Assembly: GCA_944325025.1 (NCBI GenBank)
Contig: CALUYN010000014.1
Span: forward strand, 1-45,201
Length of the DNA stretch: 45,201 bases
Direction: 5' to 3'
Source of the DNA: Candidatus Gastranaerophilales bacterium
GTDB lineage: Bacteria > Cyanobacteriota > Vampirovibrionia > Gastranaerophilales > Gastranaerophilaceae
Under the pieces are notes generated by a model, which was not told the origin of the DNA, made no database searches, and saw nothing but the letters and a program-made list of their open reading frames with translations. Made by a program: the position numbers and the translations under genes. Positions 4,987 through 44,761 of this stretch are shown piece after piece. The first letter of the stretch is position 1; each line of letters opens with the position of its first letter.

Positions 4987-5013
4987 GTCATACTGTACTT
5001 GTTTCAGTATCGC
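4987..5013. repeat. REP-like palindromic repeat unit
   Basis: GTCATACTG-TACTTG-TTTCAGTATC: one copy of the dispersed palindrome whose commonest core in the window is CTGAACTTGTTTCAG. It sits between two convergent stop codons (4959 and 5020), a typical REP position. Confidence 0.7.
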
Positions 5014-12967: not shown

Positions 12968-15007
12968 CTATTTAATTTTTGTTTCAAGAATTTTTAAGCG
13001 GGCTTCAAATTCCTTATTGTCATCCTGAAGTTTTCTGTTGTCATTCTGAACTTGTTTCAGAATCTCGGTTAACTCTTGATTTTCTTTCTCAAGCGCAGTG
13101 ATACGTGAATCAAGCTCCTTGATTGCATTTATCATCGCATAGAACATATCTTCAAAACGTATTCTCAAAAAACCGTCTTTGGCTTTTGTTACTGCGTCAG
13201 GAAACACTTTTTGCAAATCTTGAGCGATCACACCGACGTGAGGCGTTTTCTTTTCGTCTTTTTTAAAGGTATAGTTAAACACTTTCAACTGTTTGATTTT
13301 TTCAAGACCTGATGTGCTTTCCTTGCCTACGTATTTTAATCGGCGGTCGGAATATCTGTCATACCATGCTTTATCTTCACCTACATCAGTTGGATAGCCT
13401 CGTAAATTATCATCACCGCCATCATAATCACCTCTTCTGATGACTGCCCAGTCACCTTGTGCGTTGCCTGGACGAAGAACTACCCTTCCTCTTTCACCAT
13501 TTAACAAAACAGTGCCACGAACAACCAAATTCCCCGGAATAAAAACAGTTGAATTAGGATCTCCTATATAAACCATATTTGAATCTCCAGACAAGTGAGA
13601 ATACTTGGATGCTGGGCCTGAATTGGCTCCCAGACAGGTTACATTTGTGCCCGTCACGCCTTTACAAGCATTAATACCTATGGCAACATTGTTTTCTCCC
13701 TTGGCAATTGCTTTATTTCCTAAGGCTATAGAAGAACGACCGCTAGCTATTGAATCTGCTCCTAAAGCAGTTGCGCCGTAAGTTGTTGCCTCTGTACTAT
13801 AACCTAAAGCTATAGTAGCATAAGCTGTTGAATAAGCGCCATCACCAATTGCAACTGCAGCTACGCCTGATGCTGTTGTTGTATGAGCAGTTTCTACGCT
13901 CCCTATTGCTATAGAATTTCCTCCGCTTGCTTGTACTCCGTTACCAATGGCTATTGCATCCAACGCTGTTGCATTTGGCTCATTGCCTATTGCTATTGAA
14001 TTTTCACCGTTTGCCCCACTACCACTGCCTGTTGTTCCTATGGCAATTCCGTTTTTACCTGAACGGATAAATGCGCCTATTGCTACTCCATTTTCTCCTG
14101 CCTGAGCTTCATTTCCTACAGCAACTCCAAATTGACCTGAAGCTGTTCTGCTTCCGCCTATAGCTACACTGTTAGCACCCGGGCTAACTTCATTACCTAT
14201 ACCAATAACATTGCTATTATTAAAAGTGCTTGAAGCGTTCGAGCTTCCGATAACTATTGAACCCGCACCATTCACGGTTATATTTGAACCAATCGCAGTT
14301 GTATCATTAGCTGTTGCATCACTGTTAAATCCTATGGCAAGTGAATTTGACGCATTTGCCTCTGATTGATAACCTAAAGATACACTGCTTGTTCCAGTGG
14401 CTTTTGTTCCATAACCATAGGCAGTGGAGGAATTACTAGCTTCGCTACTGTCACCAACTGCTGTTGAATATGTGTTTGCACGGCTAGCTGTTCCTATAGC
14501 AACTGAATCCTCGCCATAACCTAAAGCCTGATTACCTATCATTACAGAATTAGCTGACTCGGCCTGCGCGCCGTTGGCTGCTTCACCTAACTTCACGCTA
14601 TGGTTACTTAATTCTAACCGACCGCTTACTGTATTGTCTGTTTTAAACAAGATATGATGTTTCTCAAGACCTGTACTTATTACTAAACGAGAATTTGTGT
14701 CAGTATCTTGGGCTTCCTGCTGACCTATCATGGCAACCTGCGCATCGCCTAAACCATAGTAAGCATCTGATCCGTTTTCTGCCCATACCCAGGGAGATGA
14801 TTGGTCTAGTTTATTCCTTGTTGTCATCACAGGTGCCATTGCTGCCATGATGATACTTAGTATAAGCATGACTACCATCATCTCGGCTAAGGTAAAACCG
14901 AAATGCTTAAATCTAAACTTGCTTAAATCCCAAAAAACCTCGTCAGGAGTGCTTAGAGTGCCCCCCCCCCCGAAGGTGTCAAACGCGTTCATATCAATAC
15001 TTTTCAT
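12968..15007 (-). CDS. Prepilin-anchored YadA-head fibre with C-terminal peptidase S74 chaperone domain
   Basis: A 679-residue mosaic. Residues 1-37 are a leader with FGGGGT encoded by an 11-G tract. At 37-60 is a type IV prepilin cleavage/methylation motif (G|FTLAE then a hydrophobic helix). From about 145 to 480 is a long run of degenerate 14-15-residue repeats of the form NSVAIG, typical of YadA/Hep trimeric beta-roll heads. From Ser553 (SDRRLK) is a peptidase S74 intramolecular chaperone domain with GVIAQDLQKVFPDAV, then a coiled coil (about 625-679). S74 domains trimerise the fibre and then cut themselves off before this Ser. I chose ATG 15007, seven bases after AAGGAG, over GTG 15013. 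The product is probably an exported, trimeric, N-terminally anchored adhesin or pilus-tip fibre. The frame is open (ON) in this sequence. Confidence 0.85.
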   Translation of the reverse strand: MKSIDMNAFDTFGGGGTLSTPDEVFWDLSKFRFKHFGFTLAEMMVVMLILSIIMAAMAPVMTTRNKLDQSSPWVWAENGSDAYYGLGDAQVAMIGQQEAQDTDTNSRLVISTGLEKHHILFKTDNTVSGRLELSNHSVKLGEAANGAQAESANSVMIGNQALGYGEDSVAIGTASRANTYSTAVGDSSEASNSSTAYGYGTKATGTSSVSLGYQSEANASNSLAIGFNSDATANDTTAIGSNITVNGAGSIVIGSSNASSTFNNSNVIGIGNEVSPGANSVAIGGSRTASGQFGVAVGNEAQAGENGVAIGAFIRSGKNGIAIGTTGSGSGANGENSIAIGNEPNATALDAIAIGNGVQASGGNSIAIGSVETAHTTTASGVAAVAIGDGAYSTAYATIALGYSTEATTYGATALGADSIASGRSSIALGNKAIAKGENNVAIGINACKGVTGTNVTCLGANSGPASKYSHLSGDSNMVYIGDPNSTVFIPGNLVVRGTVLLNGERGRVVLRPGNAQGDWAVIRRGDYDGGDDNLRGYPTDVGEDKAWYDRYSDRRLKYVGKESTSGLEKIKQLKVFNYTFKKDEKKTPHVGVIAQDLQKVFPDAVTKAKDGFLRIRFEDMFYAMINAIKELDSRITALEKENQELTEILKQVQNDNRKLQDDNKEFEARLKILETKIK
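13040..13066. repeat. REP-like unit inside the S74 gene coiled coil
   Basis: Core CTGAACTTGTTTCAG with GTCATT/AATCTC flanks, identical to intergenic REP copies. On the coding (minus) strand it encodes EILKQVQND, which continues the heptad pattern of the C-terminal coiled coil. Confidence 0.8.
14961..14971 (-). repeat. Poly-G tract (11 G), phase ON
   Basis: Eleven C on the + strand, i.e. G on the coding strand, 12 codons after ATG 15007 (codons TTC then GGG GGG GGG GGC ACT). Homopolymer tracts of this length are prone to slipped-strand change. With 11 G the downstream frame is the pilin/YadA/S74 frame. Confidence 0.9.
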
Positions 15008-15189
15008 ACTCACTCCTTTGCTTTTTTATAACTCGTTTATTCAGATATATATATTATAACATAAATTTCTTTAGTATTACAACCTCTCGTTGAAAAATTG
15101 ACAAATACTTAAAAATCATTAATTCAAATAGAGGATACGGAAAAATTTGATTGTATGTAAAATATAATCGGAGGAAGGTTTAAACAGAT

Positions 15190-29803: not shown

Positions 29804-30691
29804 TTACCTGCCAATATCTTGAAGCATTTTTGTACATGTAACTCCACCCTTTTCAATCCTATTAACAGGAGTAAGATATAAAGGCTTATCTAAATTTGAT
29901 TTAAGCTGAAAAGGGAAAAGGTCATAACCCCATTTATTAGGCCCTTTCTTTCCATTTATATCAAATACAAAATATTTAATCCAATCGTTATACATAACAA
30001 AAATTACACCATCTGACAACACCCAGACATGAGCTTTGGTGCGGATATTGTTTGTTCGCCAACCTGATTCGCCTGTTGTTCCGGTAGTTATTTCTTGCTC
30101 TGTAGCATCAGGCTTGTTATCTGTGTAAATCTTGTCAATACCGTTATATTCAGGGATACATCCATCCGCAACACCATTTCCTTCGCATATTTTAATTATA
30201 TTCAAGGTCTTTTTCATTTCATTTTTTAATACATCACAATCAGAGTTTTGGTTACTATTTACTATATAATTACCCCATTTAATACATTCGCCTTTGTCAT
30301 CATATTCAAGACATTCTCCGCCTTTGTTATCATCACCGTAATAACACATAGGGTGATACCCAAGATTTGTTTCTGCTAGACGAAATGCATTATAAACCGT
30401 ATTGTATGCTTTTTTAAACTGCTGACGCTGCACCATTTTTTGATAATTTGCCATTAATGCAGGTATTGTTATTGCCGCAACAACACCTATTATACCAAGG
30501 GTAATGAGAACTTCTGCTAAAGTAAACGCGCTCTTACGTTGACTCGTCGGCAGGGCTACGTGCGTAGCACCTTCTGCCAAAGTAAATGCAACTCGTTTTT
30601 TAAGTGAAGAGTGAAGGGGGAAACGTGAAGAGAGTTTATTTTTTAGTGATAAGACGATAAGACGATAAGTCCGTTTCACAAAACTAAACAC
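29804..30691 (-). CDS. Type IV prepilin-like protein, phase-variable (OFF in this sequence)
   Basis: The pilin part has the motif SAFTLAEVLITLGIIGVVAAITI followed by NYQKMVQRQQFKKAY, then a globular domain with several Cys (CYYGDDNKGGECLEY, CDVLKN, CEGNGVADGCIPEY) and a C-terminal VTCTKMLQDIGR. A second FTLAE motif 20 residues earlier (VAFTLAEG) suggests a partial duplication at the cleavage site. GTG 30691 has no ribosome site and sits in repeat sequence. The proper initiation signals are at ATG 30848, and a 12-G tract between puts this frame out by one base; 11 G would restore one open frame 30848-29804. Probably a secreted pseudopilin or surface pilin. Confidence 0.75.
   Translation of the reverse strand: MFSFVKRTYRLIVLSLKNKLSSRFPLHSSLKKRVAFTLAEGATHVALPTSQRKSAFTLAEVLITLGIIGVVAAITIPALMANYQKMVQRQQFKKAYNTVYNAFRLAETNLGYHPMCYYGDDNKGGECLEYDDKGECIKWGNYIVNSNQNSDCDVLKNEMKKTLNIIKICEGNGVADGCIPEYNGIDKIYTDNKPDATEQEITTGTTGESGWRTNNIRTKAHVWVLSDGVIFVMYNDWIKYFVFDINGKKGPNKWGYDLFPFQLKSNLDKPLYLTPVNRIEKGGVTCTKMLQDIGR
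30602..30638. repeat. R3 repeat in prepilin leader
   Basis: AAGTGAAGAGTGAAGGGGGA onward, almost identical to 37640-37676 and sharing words with 22184-22249. On the coding strand it gives SSRFPLHSSLK, just before the first FTLAE motif. Confidence 0.8.
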
Positions 30692-30848
30692 GTCATCCTG
30701 AACGTCGGCCTGACCTCCTGCCTTCCTGACCTCTGGGCTTCTATCTAATTGACTAGCCTCTTTACCTCCGGCGGAGCCTACAGTGCCCCCCCCCCCCGAA
30801 GCTCTGCAACAGACCCTGTATCATTGTTTTAGGCATATTCTCTCTCAT
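30692..30848 (-). other. Out-of-frame leader of the 29804 prepilin gene with 12-G tract
   Basis: ATG 30848 has GGAG eight bases upstream and opens 17 codons (MRENMPKTMIQGLLQSF) before the tract at 30797-30786. With 12 G translation reads GGGG then HCRLRRR and stops. Removing one G gives GGGGT and 31 further stop-free codons that run into GTG 30691 in the prepilin frame. The region after the tract contains CTCCGG/CCGGAG words and half a REP unit. Confidence 0.75.
30786..30797 (-). repeat. Poly-G tract (12 G), phase OFF
   Basis: Twelve C on the + strand, flanked on the coding strand by TTC before and CACT after, the same context as the 11-G tract at 14961-14971. Reading 12 G gives a premature stop. 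Confidence 0.88.
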
Positions 30849-36928: not shown

Positions 36929-37837
36929 TTAATTATACCAATAGTCAGCATTATCCCAACGCCTTATCCATTCACCGCAGGTTTCACCATTTGAAACAAT
37001 ATTACCAGTATCACCTAGCTTATTTTCTTTGCTGCAAATTCTTTTTACAGAACTATCAGGATAATCATAACCAACAGGAAAAATTCCTTTAGGAGTTACT
37101 ACAAAAACAAAATTATCCAAACCCCTACGGTTAATCTTATTAGCTGATACATACGCCGTAATCATCCCGCAATTATTTTCTTGAGTATGTTCTTTCCCAT
37201 CAGTGTGAATATATTTATAACTGCAGCCGTTATGAGGATTGTTATAACGCAGCACTATACCGTTATTGAAACGTTCTTTAACCATATTTGTATAATCTGC
37301 AGGACTGTCATATCGAAGTTCTCCCGACAGAGCAACTTCCTTAATATCTTGCGACATACACCCTTTCTTATAGTGGCATTTTTCTGATACTGTCATGTAT
37401 TTTGACAAAATATTTGCCATATCTTCAGGAGCATTTAAATTCCAGTATTCAGGAGTATCATTCTCAGACACCGCCATTGTAAATGCATTACCTAAAATTG
37501 AATAAATCCACTTGAACCGTGTTACAGTCTGTTTTTCACGATAATCATTAATTAACGATGGAATTGTAATAGCAGCAACAACACCTATAATGCCGAGGGT
37601 GATTAGAACTTCCGCTAAAGTAAATGCAGCTTTCTTTTTAAGTGAAGAGTGAAGCGTGAAACGTGAAGAGAGTTTATCATTACGAGGAGAATGCGGAGCA
37701 TTTGACGTAGTAATCTCATTCTTATTGCAGCTATCTTGTGATTGCAGAGCAGCTACGCTGTTCGCAATGACGGAAACAGATTGTAGGTTATTTACTGTAA
37801 ATAGCTTATTTTTTATAATTAAGAGATTCTGAAACAA
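36929..37837 (-). CDS. Type IV prepilin-like protein, phase-variable (OFF in this sequence)
   Basis: The pilin part starts at AAFTLAEVLITLGIIGVVAAITI and continues NDYREKQTVTRFKWIYSILGNAFTMA, then a Cys-containing globular domain (CHYKKGC, NPHGCSYKY, NNCGMIT, GETCGEW). The N-terminal ~85 residues before the motif are an unusual leader encoded by REP and R3 repeats. TTG 37837 has no ribosome site. ATG 37938, with GAGGG upstream, is the likelier start, but the 10-G tract between puts it out of frame; 11 G would join them. It is the third prepilin gene with this arrangement in the window. Confidence 0.75.
   Translation of the reverse strand: MFQNLLIIKNKLFTVNNLQSVSVIANSVAALQSQDSCNKNEITTSNAPHSPRNDKLSSRFTLHSSLKKKAAFTLAEVLITLGIIGVVAAITIPSLINDYREKQTVTRFKWIYSILGNAFTMAVSENDTPEYWNLNAPEDMANILSKYMTVSEKCHYKKGCMSQDIKEVALSGELRYDSPADYTNMVKERFNNGIVLRYNNPHNGCSYKYIHTDGKEHTQENNCGMITAYVSANKINRRGLDNFVFVVTPKGIFPVGYDYPDSSVKRICSKENKLGDTGNIVSNGETCGEWIRRWDNADYWYN
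37640..37676. repeat. R3 repeat in prepilin leader
   Basis: AAGTGAAGAGTGAAGCGTGA onward, ending AGAGAGTTTA. On the coding strand it gives KLSSRFTLHSSLKK. Nearly identical to 30602-30638. Confidence 0.8.
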
Positions 37838-37849: not shown

Positions 37850-37938
37850 GTAAATAGCCTGCCCTCTTGACCTCCGGGTTTCTTGGCCTCCGGTTAGCTG
37901 AGCCCCCCCCCCGAAGTTTTGAACTGTTGTTTAATCAT
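37838..37938 (-). other. Out-of-frame leader of the 36929 prepilin gene with 10-G tract
   Basis: ATG 37938 opens MIKQQFKTS, then the tract (37912-37903). With 10 G it reads GGGLS and stops; with 11 G it reads GGGA and continues without a stop into TTG 37837. The sequence after the tract shares CTCCGG and GCCTGCC words with the leader at 30692-30848. Confidence 0.75.
37903..37912 (-). repeat. Poly-G tract (10 G), phase OFF
   Basis: Ten C on the + strand, preceded on the coding strand by ACTTC. One base more would put the prepilin in frame. Confidence 0.88.
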
Positions 37939-40947: not shown

Positions 40948-42189
40948 TTAAAAAAGTGTTCCTAGCATTCCGGCATAAAGCTGATAGAAAGCCATTGCAA
41001 TAAACAGAACAAAACCGCCCATAATTACAATAAGAGTCGGTTCAAATAATTTTAGCATTGCATCTAGCGCCATATCAACTTTTTTATTAATAACATTGGC
41101 AGCATCTTTTAGCATTTTTCCTAGCGTTCCGGACTTTTCTCCTGTTGCAACCATTGTCATCAATTCTCCAGGCATTAATCCTGTAATCTGAAACGCTTCA
41201 GACAGAGTCTTGCCATTTTTTGCAAGACTTGCAGCATTCATTGCCTGTTTTTTCATTACTAAATTTCCAAGAGTTTTTCCTGAAAGCTCTAAACCTGATA
41301 AAATAGGCAGCCCTGCATCATATGAAATTTGTAAAACCTGAATAAAGTTAGAAAGATTAATGTACTTTATAAACTCAGATACTGTCGGAACTGTAAGGAT
41401 AAATTCATCCCATTTGTTTTTATAAACCGGATTTTTAAATAAACTGGAGATACAATAACATAATGCACAAAATACTATAATAACCAGCCACCAAAAATTC
41501 CCGAAAAATAAGCAGATATCAATTAATATTTGCGATAATAACGGGATTGTACCGCCATTGAATTGAATTACACTGTAAAACGCAGGAAAAACAAACTTTG
41601 AAAACAGAAGCAAAACTCCAAACATTATCAATATCAAAACAGCAGGATAAATAGATGCTCTAATTATTTTCCCTTTAATACTATCTTGATTTCGCAGCAA
41701 CACAAGCATTCGCCTTAAAGTTTCTTCTAATTCTCCGGCATCCTCCCCTGCTTTAACAAGAGAAATATATACAGGACCAAAAACAGAGCCATAAAGAGAA
41801 GTTAAAGCCTGAGCAAAAGTCATGCCGCTAAGAATTTTTTGCTGCAAATTTGCACAAACAGTTTTAATTTTTTTAGACGGAGCATTTATCTCAATTGTCT
41901 GCAAAGCCTCTAATATTGAAATACCTGCAGAAAGCATTACCTCTAATTCACTTGTAAAACTTATTTTATCTTTAAGTGAAAGAAACGTAATTTTTTTATC
42001 AGTATATTGTCCTGAATAAGGCAAATTAGTTTCAATTGATGGCTGTTGCAATTCTTCCATATAAACTTTGGTTGGAATAAAGCCAAGCTCACGGATTTTT
42101 TCACGCGCTTCTCTTGGAGATGCGGCCTCTACCACACCTTTAATTATCTCTTTATTATTCTTTAACGCATTATATTGAAATTTAGCCAT
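40948..42189 (-). CDS. Type II secretion/type IV pilus inner-membrane platform protein (GspF/PilC)
   Basis: 413 residues from ATG 42189 (TTG 42195 is also in frame; neither has a strong ribosome site). The N-terminal domain FQYNALKNNKEIIKGVVEAASPREA is typical of PilC/GspF. Two T2SSF domains (about 70-195 and 275-400) contain LEVMLSAGISILEALQ and LQISYDAGLPILSGLEL, with membrane helices near 170-195, 220-245 and 380-405. It forms the membrane platform on which the assembly ATPase extends pilins. It is the only assembly component in the window and is the natural partner of the three prepilin-like proteins. Confidence 0.93.
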   Translation of the reverse strand: MAKFQYNALKNNKEIIKGVVEAASPREAREKIRELGFIPTKVYMEELQQPSIETNLPYSGQYTDKKITFLSLKDKISFTSELEVMLSAGISILEALQTIEINAPSKKIKTVCANLQQKILSGMTFAQALTSLYGSVFGPVYISLVKAGEDAGELEETLRRMLVLLRNQDSIKGKIIRASIYPAVLILIMFGVLLLFSKFVFPAFYSVIQFNGGTIPLLSQILIDICLFFGNFWWLVIIVFCALCYCISSLFKNPVYKNKWDEFILTVPTVSEFIKYINLSNFIQVLQISYDAGLPILSGLELSGKTLGNLVMKKQAMNAASLAKNGKTLSEAFQITGLMPGELMTMVATGEKSGTLGKMLKDAANVINKKVDMALDAMLKLFEPTLIVIMGGFVLFIAMAFYQLYAGMLGTLF

Positions 42190-42265: not shown

Positions 42266-44761
42266 TTATTGAACTACTTCTGAGGGCTCTGACTGCTCTT
42301 TTTTAGATCTCTTAGATTTCTTTTCAAAAGCAATCTTGTCATCAACAAGTTTTATAACAATCGTATCACCCGGAGCGTACTTGCCTGAAAGAATTTCTTC
42401 AGCAAGCATATCTTCTATCTTGCGTTGAATTAACCTTCTCAGAGGTCTTGCGCCATAAGCTTCCGAGTATCCGTTCTTAGCCAGATGATCTTTAACTTCA
42501 TCTGTTACCTCAACAGACAATTCTCTTTCTGCAAGACGTTTGAACAAGTCTTTAAGCATCAAGTCAACAATCTGTCTGATTTCCTCCTGTGACAGGTGAG
42601 AAAATACGATTGTTTCATCAATACGGTTCAAGAACTCAGGTCTGAAGGCTTTTTTCATTTCCTCAGTAACTGTTTCTTTGAGTTTTTCGTATTTGTCTTT
42701 TGATTCATCATCACTTGTTGAGAAGCCGAGTTTTGATGTTGTTGTAATCATGCTTGCACCAACGTTAGATGTCATAATAATGATTGTATTTTTAAAGTTT
42801 ACATGACGGCCTTTTGCATCAGTTAAACGCCCATCATCAAGTATTTGAAGCATAATATTAAATACATCAGGGTGAGCCTTTTCAATTTCATCAAAAAGAA
42901 TTACGCTGTAAGGTTTCTTACGTACAAGCTCTGTCAAATGCCCGCCGTCATCATAACCGACGTATCCCGGAGGAGAACCGATAAGTTTTGCGGTTGAATG
43001 TTTTTCCATAAATTCTGACATATCAACTCTTATCATATTATCTTCCGAGCCAAATACGGCTTCTGCAAGAGCCTTTGCAAGTTCAGTTTTACCAACACCG
43101 GTAGGACCGCAGAAAATAAAGCTTCCGATAGGTCTGTTCGGACTTTTCAATCCTACACGGGCACGTCTTATTGCCTTAGAAATTGCAACGACAGCGTCAT
43201 GCTGACCGATAACTCTTTCATGAAGAGTATCTTCAAGTTTAAGAAGTCTTTCACTTTCCCCTTCAGTCAATTTGGTAACAGGAACACCTGTCATTGTTGA
43301 AATAACTTCAGCAACGTTTTCAGCAGTAACAGTAGGCTTGTTAGCTTCATGCTCTTCTTTATATTTCTGAGTCATCTCGCGAATTCGTTCTTTCAGGTCT
43401 GCCTCGTCATCTCTTAATTGTGAAGCTTTTTCAAATTCCTGATTTCTGATAGCTTCTTCTTTCTCCTTGATTAATCCGCGCAGTTCTTTTTCAAGTTCCT
43501 TGCCTTCCGGTGAAAGATTTGAAACTTTAAGACGAACTTTAGAAGATGCTTCATCGATTACGTCAATAGCTTTATCCGGCAAAAATCTGTCTGTAATATA
43601 TTTATTAGACAATTTTACAGCCGCAACAATAGCTTCGTCAGAAATTATCAATTTGTGGTGTTCTTCATACTTAGGTTTTAAACCTTTGATAATCTCAATA
43701 GATTCTTCTTCAGTAGGCTCGTCAATAATTACAGGTTGAAAACGACGTTCTAAAGCTGAATCTTTTTCAACATATTTTCTATATTCATCCAGAGTTGTCG
43801 CACCGATAACCTGAATTTCGCCTCTAGAAAGTGCAGGTTTCAAAATATTAGCCGCATCAATTGCACCTTCTGCGGCGCCGGCACCGATAAGTGTATGCAT
43901 TTCATCAATAACAAGAATAATATTTCCTGCCTGACGGATTTCATCCATAATTTTTTTCAGACGCTCTTCAAATTCGCCGCGGTATTTTGTACCTGCGACC
44001 AAAAGCCCCATATCAAGCTGAATAACTTTCTTGCCGTCCAAAATATCAGGAACTTCTGCATTAACAATTCTTGTTGCAAGGCCTTCAGCAACGGCTGTTT
44101 TACCAACACCTGGCTCCCCGATAAGTACAGGGTTGTTTTTTGTACGTCTTGCAAGGATTTGAATAACTCTTTCAATCTCTTTTTCTCTGCCGACAACCGG
44201 ATCTAAACGTAATTCCTGTGCGGCAAGAGTTAAATCACGACCAAATTCATCCAAACTCGGAGTTTTTGTCTTTCCGCCAGTTGAAGAAGATGAACTTGAA
44301 CTTCCTGATGAAACCGTTTGCGGCTTAGATTCTCCAAGCATTTTAACAACGTTGCTTCTGATTTTATTTAAATCAACGCCGAGATTTTCAAGAACACGTG
44401 CAGCAACGCCTTCTCCTTCTCTGATAAGTCCGAGCAGCAAATGTTCTGTTCCTATGTAATTATGTCCCAATTGCCTTGCTTCATCCCATGACAATTCAAG
44501 AACTCTTTTTGCCCTCGGTGTAAATGGAATTTCAACGGCAACAAATCCCGAGCCTCTGCCGATAATTTTTTCAACTTCTGCTCTGGCATCTTTTAATGTC
44601 ACGCCCATTGATTTTAAAGTTTTTGCGGCAACCCCTGTTCCTTCGCCGATAAGCCCGAGCAATACCTGCTCTGTACCGACGAAATTATGACCGAGTCTGC
44701 GCGCTTCTTCCTGAGCTAACATTATAACTTTTATAGCTTTCTCCGTAAAACGTTCGAACAT
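42266..44761 (-). CDS. clpC: ATP-dependent Clp protease ATPase subunit ClpC
   Basis: An 831-residue Hsp100 unfoldase that feeds substrates to ClpP. Two Clp_N repeats (about 1-70 and 80-145), a Ser-rich linker (150-162), AAA-1 with Walker A GEPGVGKT (215-222), a UVR motif in the middle domain ([17 protein letters not shown]) that defines ClpC against ClpA/ClpB, AAA-2 with GPTGVGKT near 560 and GYVGYDDGG, and the C-terminal D2-small domain ([15 protein letters not shown]). The tail is Lys/Ser/Glu rich. TAGGAG precedes the ATG. ClpC is the usual form in cyanobacteria and Firmicutes. Confidence 0.97.

Follow-up and report, generated by a model that had tools for sequence, protein, structure and literature searches.

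The present study concerns a gene on the minus strand (positions 12968 to 15007) of the window, which is the whole 45,201-nucleotide stretch analyzed, positions 1 to 45,201 of contig CALUYN010000014.1 in the Candidatus Gastranaerophilales bacterium assembly GCA_944325025.1. Domain searches, alignments, and structure prediction suggest that its product is probably a phase-variable modular pilin bearing a phage-type trimeric fibre, most likely at the tip of a type IV filament. A broader reading, which we offer tentatively and rate somewhat short of an even chance, is that the Gastranaerophilales show clonally varied pilus-borne fibres, with most of their prepilins, phage-type self-trimerizing fibres included, each gated by a run of G in the leader. 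The gene is built as follows.

12968 to 15007, minus strand: whole fibre gene, 679 amino acids, with its ATG at 15007 and its stop codon at 12968 to 12970
14897 to 15007, minus strand: leader peptide, residues 1 to 37, the last being Gly, delimited by sequence and the N_methyl boundary
14961 to 14971, minus strand: run of 11 G (coding strand) in the leader, at Gly residues 13 to 16; the frame from ATG to prepilin motif is open (on) in the assembly
14822 to 14896, minus strand: type IV pilin helix, residues 38 to 62, beginning FTLAE, with F at +1, E at +5, and P at +22 (Pfam, model, and alignment)
14621 to 14821, minus strand: conserved adaptor from helix to head, residues 63 to 129 (about 67 residues), of low model confidence
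13613 to 14620, minus strand: YadA-type β-roll head, residues 130 to 465 (Pfam, model, profile and fold matches)
13352 to 13612, minus strand: variable neck upstream of the S74 domain, residues 466 to 552, of low model confidence
13187 to 13351, minus strand: S74 intramolecular chaperone domain, whose first residue is the catalytic-type Ser553 of SDRRLK (Pfam, alignment, and model)
12974 to 13156, minus strand: C-terminal coiled-coil tail, residues 618 to 678 (models and alignment)

Three Pfam families match the 679-residue protein above their curated cut-offs, N_methyl (29.6 bits), YadA_head (76.4 bits), and Peptidase_S74 (58.9 bits), in agreement with a first-pass annotation of the bare sequence, which had proposed an N-terminal type IV prepilin anchor, a YadA-type β-roll, and an S74 chaperone domain. 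The anchor has the features of a class III signal (Gly at −1, a hydrophobic helix, E at +5) together with P22, the S74 domain has the SDxxxK motif, and Ser553 of SDRRLK, counted from the ATG, leaves 127 residues, as had been claimed. Structure prediction, on which that annotation had staked its case, yields both the β-roll and the S74 fold, all models being of single chains. Specifically, the full-length AlphaFold2 model contains a helix at residues 40 to 60, a β-roll at about 130 to 460, and a long C-terminal helix at 618 to 678. Ten-residue means of the predicted local distance difference test (pLDDT) across the roll are mostly 75 to 96, lower at some joints, with 27 at residues 261 to 270. 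The roll matches BpaC (7o23) both by fold (E 2.8e-7, query TM-score 0.27) and by profile (E 9.7e-31), and YadA (1p9h) was also matched. The S74 part was poorly modelled in the full-length run and reached a mean pLDDT of 85 with a more diverse alignment, to which 24 viral and five family sequences had been added; in the Protein Data Bank the S74 model matches MYRF ICA at E 1.7e-6, and weaker matches are to two phage intramolecular chaperones, 3gud (3.6e-3) and 3gw6 (8.3e-3).

The same architecture recurs well beyond the window. In the genus, 30 of the 34 genomes have S74, a single genome giving as many as 11 matches; in the order it is present in 99 of 192 genomes (21 of 45 genera), and in a phylum sample in 85 of 292, of which 11 lie beyond the order. 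Members were compared in 64 regions: the window, three copies from the same genome, 40 regions from the genus (chosen, with long open frames favoured, from 93 S74 matches outside the source genome), and 20 from the order and phylum. These regions contain 66 S74 frames (one region, L150, was taken for two S74 matches, of which the frame pattern caught one), and setting aside 10 frames open at the 5′ end and two with unread bases (L124 and L157) leaves 54 that are 5′-complete. The search for proteins combining the three parts, which the first-pass annotation had recommended, was productive: at E ≤0.01, S74 is matched in 54/54 of these frames, N_methyl in 52/54, and YadA_head in 38/54, and in the alignment E5 is kept in 52, P22 in 53, and the S, D, second R, and K of SDxRxK in all 54. 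One of the two frames lacking an N_methyl match, L138, is broken between adaptor and head, and its prepilin motif was found in another frame. The other, L236, comes from a genome outside the order, the only one examined of the 11 such S74-bearing genomes, and no prepilin motif was found in it. Two members from other families of the order (L238 and L239) keep the pilin-like helix, and no YadA-like repeat was counted in them. On these domain and residue counts the constant parts are the pilin helix and S74, and it is the head that varies. Judged from its members, the pilin–S74 fusion is a genuine, old family, not a chance fusion. The tail also bears a mark of constraint: its length from the Ser to the end equals 106+7n residues in 37 of 44 genus frames, as against 5 of 22 other frames. 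Length changes in whole heptads are a sign of selection to keep the coiled coil unbroken. As a side observation, one S74 frame open at its 5′ end (L146) has Cys in place of the catalytic-type Ser.

Given the phage-like character of the S74 domain, the gene could be imagined to be a fibre gene left behind by a phage or giant virus, with a prepilin signal gained by chance. YadA-like and S74 proteins are indeed common among the viral fold matches, from both phages and giant viruses, and the S74 domain has 81 relatives on viral contigs (80 kept) and matches in 1077 phage records. Nonetheless, such an origin is highly improbable: the prepilin fusion is found in 52 of the 54 complete frames, S74 identity to the viral copies is 27–48%, and the scanned neighbours are cellular genes or without identity. 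A phage origin in place was rejected as a current explanation; no phage genes were found among the scanned window neighbours and 10 of the 14 open reading frames flanking the other copies.

How a modular pilin bearing a trimeric fibre would reach the surface is suggested by the remainder of the genome. It contains one secretin match, on contig C8, adjoining a PilB/GspE-type ATPase, two additional T2SSE matches above cut-off, and one prepilin peptidase, so that the pilus-type export machine presumed by the first-pass annotation is encoded in the same genome. That annotation had also proposed a part for the GspF at 40948, and this GspF is genuine (T2SSF, 150 bits); it is adjoined, however, by a ClpC-type ATPase (42266–44761), which led us to reject a GspE beside it, and the secretin and its ATPase lie on contig C8. 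LpxK and MlaD, encoded near the fibre gene, fit an outer membrane with lipid A, and secretin, ATPase, prepilin peptidase, LpxK, and MlaD are together consistent with a cell that has both an outer membrane and a pilus-type machine.

These data also bear on two other fates for the protein. In the first, the fibre would remain in the inner membrane, the helix being a mere anchor and the trimer periplasmic or envelope-bridging, with no pilus-type export. This possibility draws on the AlphaFold2 model, in which a pilin globular domain is not visible, and on the neighbourhood: Pfam found no pilus genes in QueA and SLT, the neighbours of the window fibre gene, or in 10 of the 14 open reading frames flanking the other copies (two of the 10 being without match). 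E5 is not known to be required for simple membrane anchoring, yet G or A at −1, F at +1, E at +5, and P at +22 are conserved across members; moreover, the diversity of the head and its switching would suit surface display rather than a periplasmic part. We consider retention in the inner membrane unlikely. In the second, the prepilin part would serve a type II secretion-like pseudopilus that releases the trimer as a soluble protein or adhesin. In its favour, there is a single secretin match, and a trimer severed from its helix would be soluble; but no cleavage separating the head from the helix was evident, and because S74 cuts at the C-terminal end the head should stay joined to the pilin helix. 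Release is thus quite unlikely, and display on a type IV filament remains the reading that we prefer.

Expression of the fibre appears to be under the control of its leader. The 11-G run of the window gene (in the window as read, a C run of length 11 at 14961–14971) leaves ATG, leader, and prepilin motif in a single frame, on in the assembly, and in a copy on contig C16, with 10 G, a stop codon directly follows the run. States were called from an ATG ahead of the run, one with a ribosome-site-like stretch being preferred, whose frame was followed to the prepilin motif. The fibre gene had been described as phase variable in the first-pass annotation, and the run does decide its reading frame; what did not stand is that the gene is special in this respect, the arrangement being seen at most prepilins of the genome. 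Among the 48 prepilin motifs of the source genome, 33 have a run within 1000 nucleotides upstream (27 G and 6 C, counted from a length of at least 8; the threshold in the available text of PMC5953494 is 9), and 7 of these are on and 26 off. Sixty-five S74 frames could be judged across the order and phylum regions, with L236 left out: 22 have a run, 32 have the motif without a run, and 11 have no in-frame motif, nine of these being open at the 5′ end and the others being L138 and L148, the latter missed by the pattern and matched by N_methyl.

The runs might instead be debris of mobile repeats or assembly noise, with no switching and with translation from downstream starts. In keeping with this, dispersed repeats occur in leaders, 10 of the 33 run-bearing prepilins offer, downstream of the run, a candidate in-frame start accompanied by a ribosome-site-like stretch, and run lengths are consensus values. 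We regard this explanation as decidedly improbable on four counts. First, where the run lies at least 90 nucleotides from the motif, at distances of up to 829 nucleotides, the prepilin frame of the intervening DNA contains no stop codon in 24 of 26 cases, and the other two frames are free of stops in 0 and 0; that these 24 leaders are open in the prepilin frame alone is strong evidence for their translation. Second, an in-frame start is present in 30 of the 32 run-free S74 genes, whereas among the 22 run-bearing ones 9 are on and 13 off. Third, in 272 kb of the source genome there are just four G/C runs of 6–8 and 50 runs of 9–12, in a sample enriched for runs because the DNA was taken from around prepilins and runs; these 50 cover 103 of the 111 sliding G9 matches found genome-wide. 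The window itself has C runs of lengths 10, 11, and 12, and none of 7–9. Fourth, 15 of the 34 genus genomes contain the flanked pattern CTTC-G(8-13)-CACT, and 0 of 34 contain its reversed control. Collectively, the frames give good support to phase variation of the fibre and prepilin genes, and a G run in a part of the protein that would later be discarded probably toggles several fibre copies.

Several further observations concern the runs. Among the 50 examined, 22 are preceded by CTTC, 24 are followed by CACT, and 14 have both, the start codon often lying 30 nucleotides upstream; flanks and spacing look as if one leader cassette had spread. The leaders reach about 276 codons (829 nucleotides from run to motif) in one open frame, partly made of dispersed repeats, as at L166 (C1:67703) and L049 (C2:15622); usual prepilin leaders are far shorter. 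Two further prepilins of the window, with motifs at 30467–30538 and 37565–37639, have a 12-G run at 30786–30797 and a 10-G run at 37903–37912 in front, respectively, each out of frame in the assembly. G runs also lie in other frames for which no downstream prepilin motif was found (L183, C2:148579; L185, C4:75662; L195, C23:451; and L196, C24:18769 and 19059), and these frames are possibly further switched genes.

The source genome (1.76 Mb) contains S74 at six places, the window and contigs C16, C32, C19, and C24, together with a broken copy at the edge of C15 (L012, 1–473), whose frame is broken within the S74 domain. An additional fibre copy at the edge of C16 is ended by the contig end after its N-terminal part. 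The paralogues are alike in DNA at their two ends (82.0–93.7% identity at the N-terminal end and 82.5–96.4% at the C-terminal end), and most of the head is unalignable. Inner blocks of likeness are nevertheless shared by particular pairs: the C19 copy and the partial C16 copy have 361 nucleotides at 94% within the head, and the C16 and C32 copies have 726 nucleotides at 96%, running from the last part of the head through neck and S74 into the tail; two further short inner blocks are just 72–76% alike. Such mosaic heads are the pattern that segment exchange between copies would leave. The C24 copy (L011, 3302–4528; 409 codons) starts within the head, with no prepilin part ahead of it, and is possibly a silent donor of head segments; the DNA directly upstream of its frame resembles the end of another gene, which we take to be panD.

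Together these data are best explained by a model in which a G run that leaves the start codon in frame would allow the protein to be inserted via Sec, its leader remaining inside the cell. The periplasmic part would trimerize on the S74 domain and the coiled coil, and self-cleavage of S74 before Ser553 would give a closed β-roll trimer with a free tip. Prepilin peptidase would strip the leader, including the peptide encoded by the G run. A machine of the type IV pilus or type II secretion-like kind would move the trimer through the secretin, most likely as the tip of a filament. Slippage in the G run would switch single family members, with the result that cells of one clone would display different fibres, and the head may bind a gut target such as a host glycan or mucus, other bacteria, or food particles. 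Any residues added by the run or by subsequent insertions would be lost with the leader and leave the mature protein untouched. If the fibres are clonally varied in the manner of our broader reading, the switch may cost the mature protein nothing, the leader may be free to reach hundreds of codons, and truncated copies may be silent head donors.

A number of points weigh against the model of a switched, pilus-borne fibre family. The full-length AlphaFold2 model is of modest quality (mean pLDDT 64.9, predicted TM-score 0.52), the fold matches of the long head have a high root-mean-square deviation (8.5 Å to 7o23), and a pilin globular domain is not visible because the stretch from helix to head (residues 63–129) is modelled at low confidence. 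The position at the pilus tip is proposed by analogy. Within the family, an S74 match is absent in 4 of the 34 genus genomes and 93 of the 192 order genomes, the β-roll is not universal, 16 of the 54 members having no YadA_head match, and at least two of the 52 N_methyl matches (L238 and L148) fall below Pfam's own cut-off. The run pattern is not universal either, as a run is missing in front of 15 of the 48 prepilins and two of the 26 distant leaders fail to stay open, and the C19 copy is called on from an ATG without a ribosome site by pattern. Finally, run lengths are a metagenome-assembly consensus and can be wrong, and the differing states are known among paralogues and species.

Elements of the proposed fibre are known from several systems. 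Modular pilins with grafted adhesin modules have been described, for example PilB of Streptococcus sanguinis, and a 2021 survey lists the pilin–S74 architecture (IPR012902–IPR030392), taking S74 as a predicted peptidase (PMC8179133, in the portion available). The fibre shares with these modular type IV pilins a prepilin N terminus joined to a foreign module, here YadA_head and S74, which are not pilus-specific. Neither a β-roll of YadA type nor a trimer chaperone, repertoire, or switching is mentioned in the available portion of the survey, whose main text nowhere contains the words Gastranaerophilales, Melainabacteria, or Cyanobacteria (PMC8179133). Our analysis suggests that the "peptidase" reading of pilin–S74 proteins should become one of an intramolecular chaperone and trimeric fibre, at least in the Gastranaerophilales. 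The idea of an undescribed class, raised in the first-pass annotation, is weakened by this listing; the three-part pilin–YadA–S74 fusion itself, and likewise phase-variable pilins in Gastranaerophilales, appeared in no paper among the open-licence literature matches listed, which is no proof of absence.

In way of working, the mosaic adhesive trimer (MAT) fibres of Bdellovibrio come closest. As far as the accessible text of PMC10769870 goes, these have an N-terminal base, a long trimeric β fibre, and S74 at the C terminus; 13 of the 21 members have SDxxxK, paralogues with differing tips are numerous, and Bd3182 has been shown to cleave itself at S782. The base on the N-terminal side and the C-terminal S74 with SDxxxK are thus common to both; in the MAT fibres, however, a signal peptide is followed by a conserved 130-residue β domain, in contrast to the prepilin signal found here, and the word pilin is absent from the same text (PMC10769870). 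The polarity of the fibre, called reversed in the first-pass annotation, is accordingly reversed only relative to trimeric autotransporters and is the same as that of phage fibres and the MAT fibres. With trimeric autotransporters such as YadA and BpaC the fibre shares the YadA-type β-roll head, but it is anchored at the opposite end. YadA_anchor has no match in the fibre protein or in the genome (an assembly 91.5% complete, with a positive E. coli control), and for this reason we do not count the fibre as a trimeric autotransporter (type Vc).

The fold of S74 and the SDxxxK motif are shared with phage tail fibres, endosialidase, and MYRF ICA. Phage tail fibres are based at the N terminus and tipped with S74 at the C terminus; phage S74 fibres, endosialidase, and MYRF are not known to have a pilin anchor and are encoded by phages or animals. 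The minor pilins TcpB and CofB differ from the fibre in that they are not known to have S74 or a YadA-type roll. In the available part of PMC9565799 these type IVb proteins are given a predicted pilin-like first domain, β-rich distal domains, and a homotrimer at the tip, and the tcp gene lies in a pilus operon. The fibre copies described here are, by contrast, dispersed. For the switch, the nearest parallel is Neisseria pilC, whose G/C run lies in the signal peptide. An in-frame G/C run in this gene for a pilus-associated protein leads to on/off switching (PMC5953494, in the part available to us). PilC is not a pilin, however, and one or two such genes compare with some 33 prepilins here.

The interpretation with which the analysis began was largely right, with the corrections given above, and the genome-wide prepilin switch may be the more novel part. 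If the model is true, three separately known fibre designs, pilin, YadA roll, and phage S74 tip, would be united in a common uncultured gut group, and the ability of type IV machinery to carry a trimer that has already formed could be put to the test. The switch, recurring at dozens of genes, would also be a clean example of phase control located in a leader peptide that is later removed. If the broader reading holds, this would be to our knowledge the first pilus to bear self-cut trimeric fibres of phage type, and its genome would have one of the larger sets of phase-variable pilins.

The remaining features of the gene are minor ones.

15013 to 15018, minus strand: ribosome binding site AAGGAG (sequence)
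15053 to 15082, minus strand: promoter-like TTGTAA-18-TATAAT with TG ahead of the second hexamer (pattern match)
13040 to 13063, minus strand: dispersed palindromic repeat ATTCTGAAACAAGTTCAGAATGAC, in frame within the coiled coil, one of seven matches in the window

An alternative start, GTG, lies six bases upstream of the ATG at 15007. The promoter-like site is weak on its own because the region has 9 matches, against 5.6 (standard deviation 2.3) in shuffles. Tandem Repeats Finder found no tandem repeats in the fibre gene, and RNA structure at its leader gave no signal (z-score −0.56). The palindromic repeat, allowing up to three mismatches, has its seven matches in the window against 0 in 100 shuffles, the other copies lying at 4987, 10365, 15938, 27044, 37826, and 45001.

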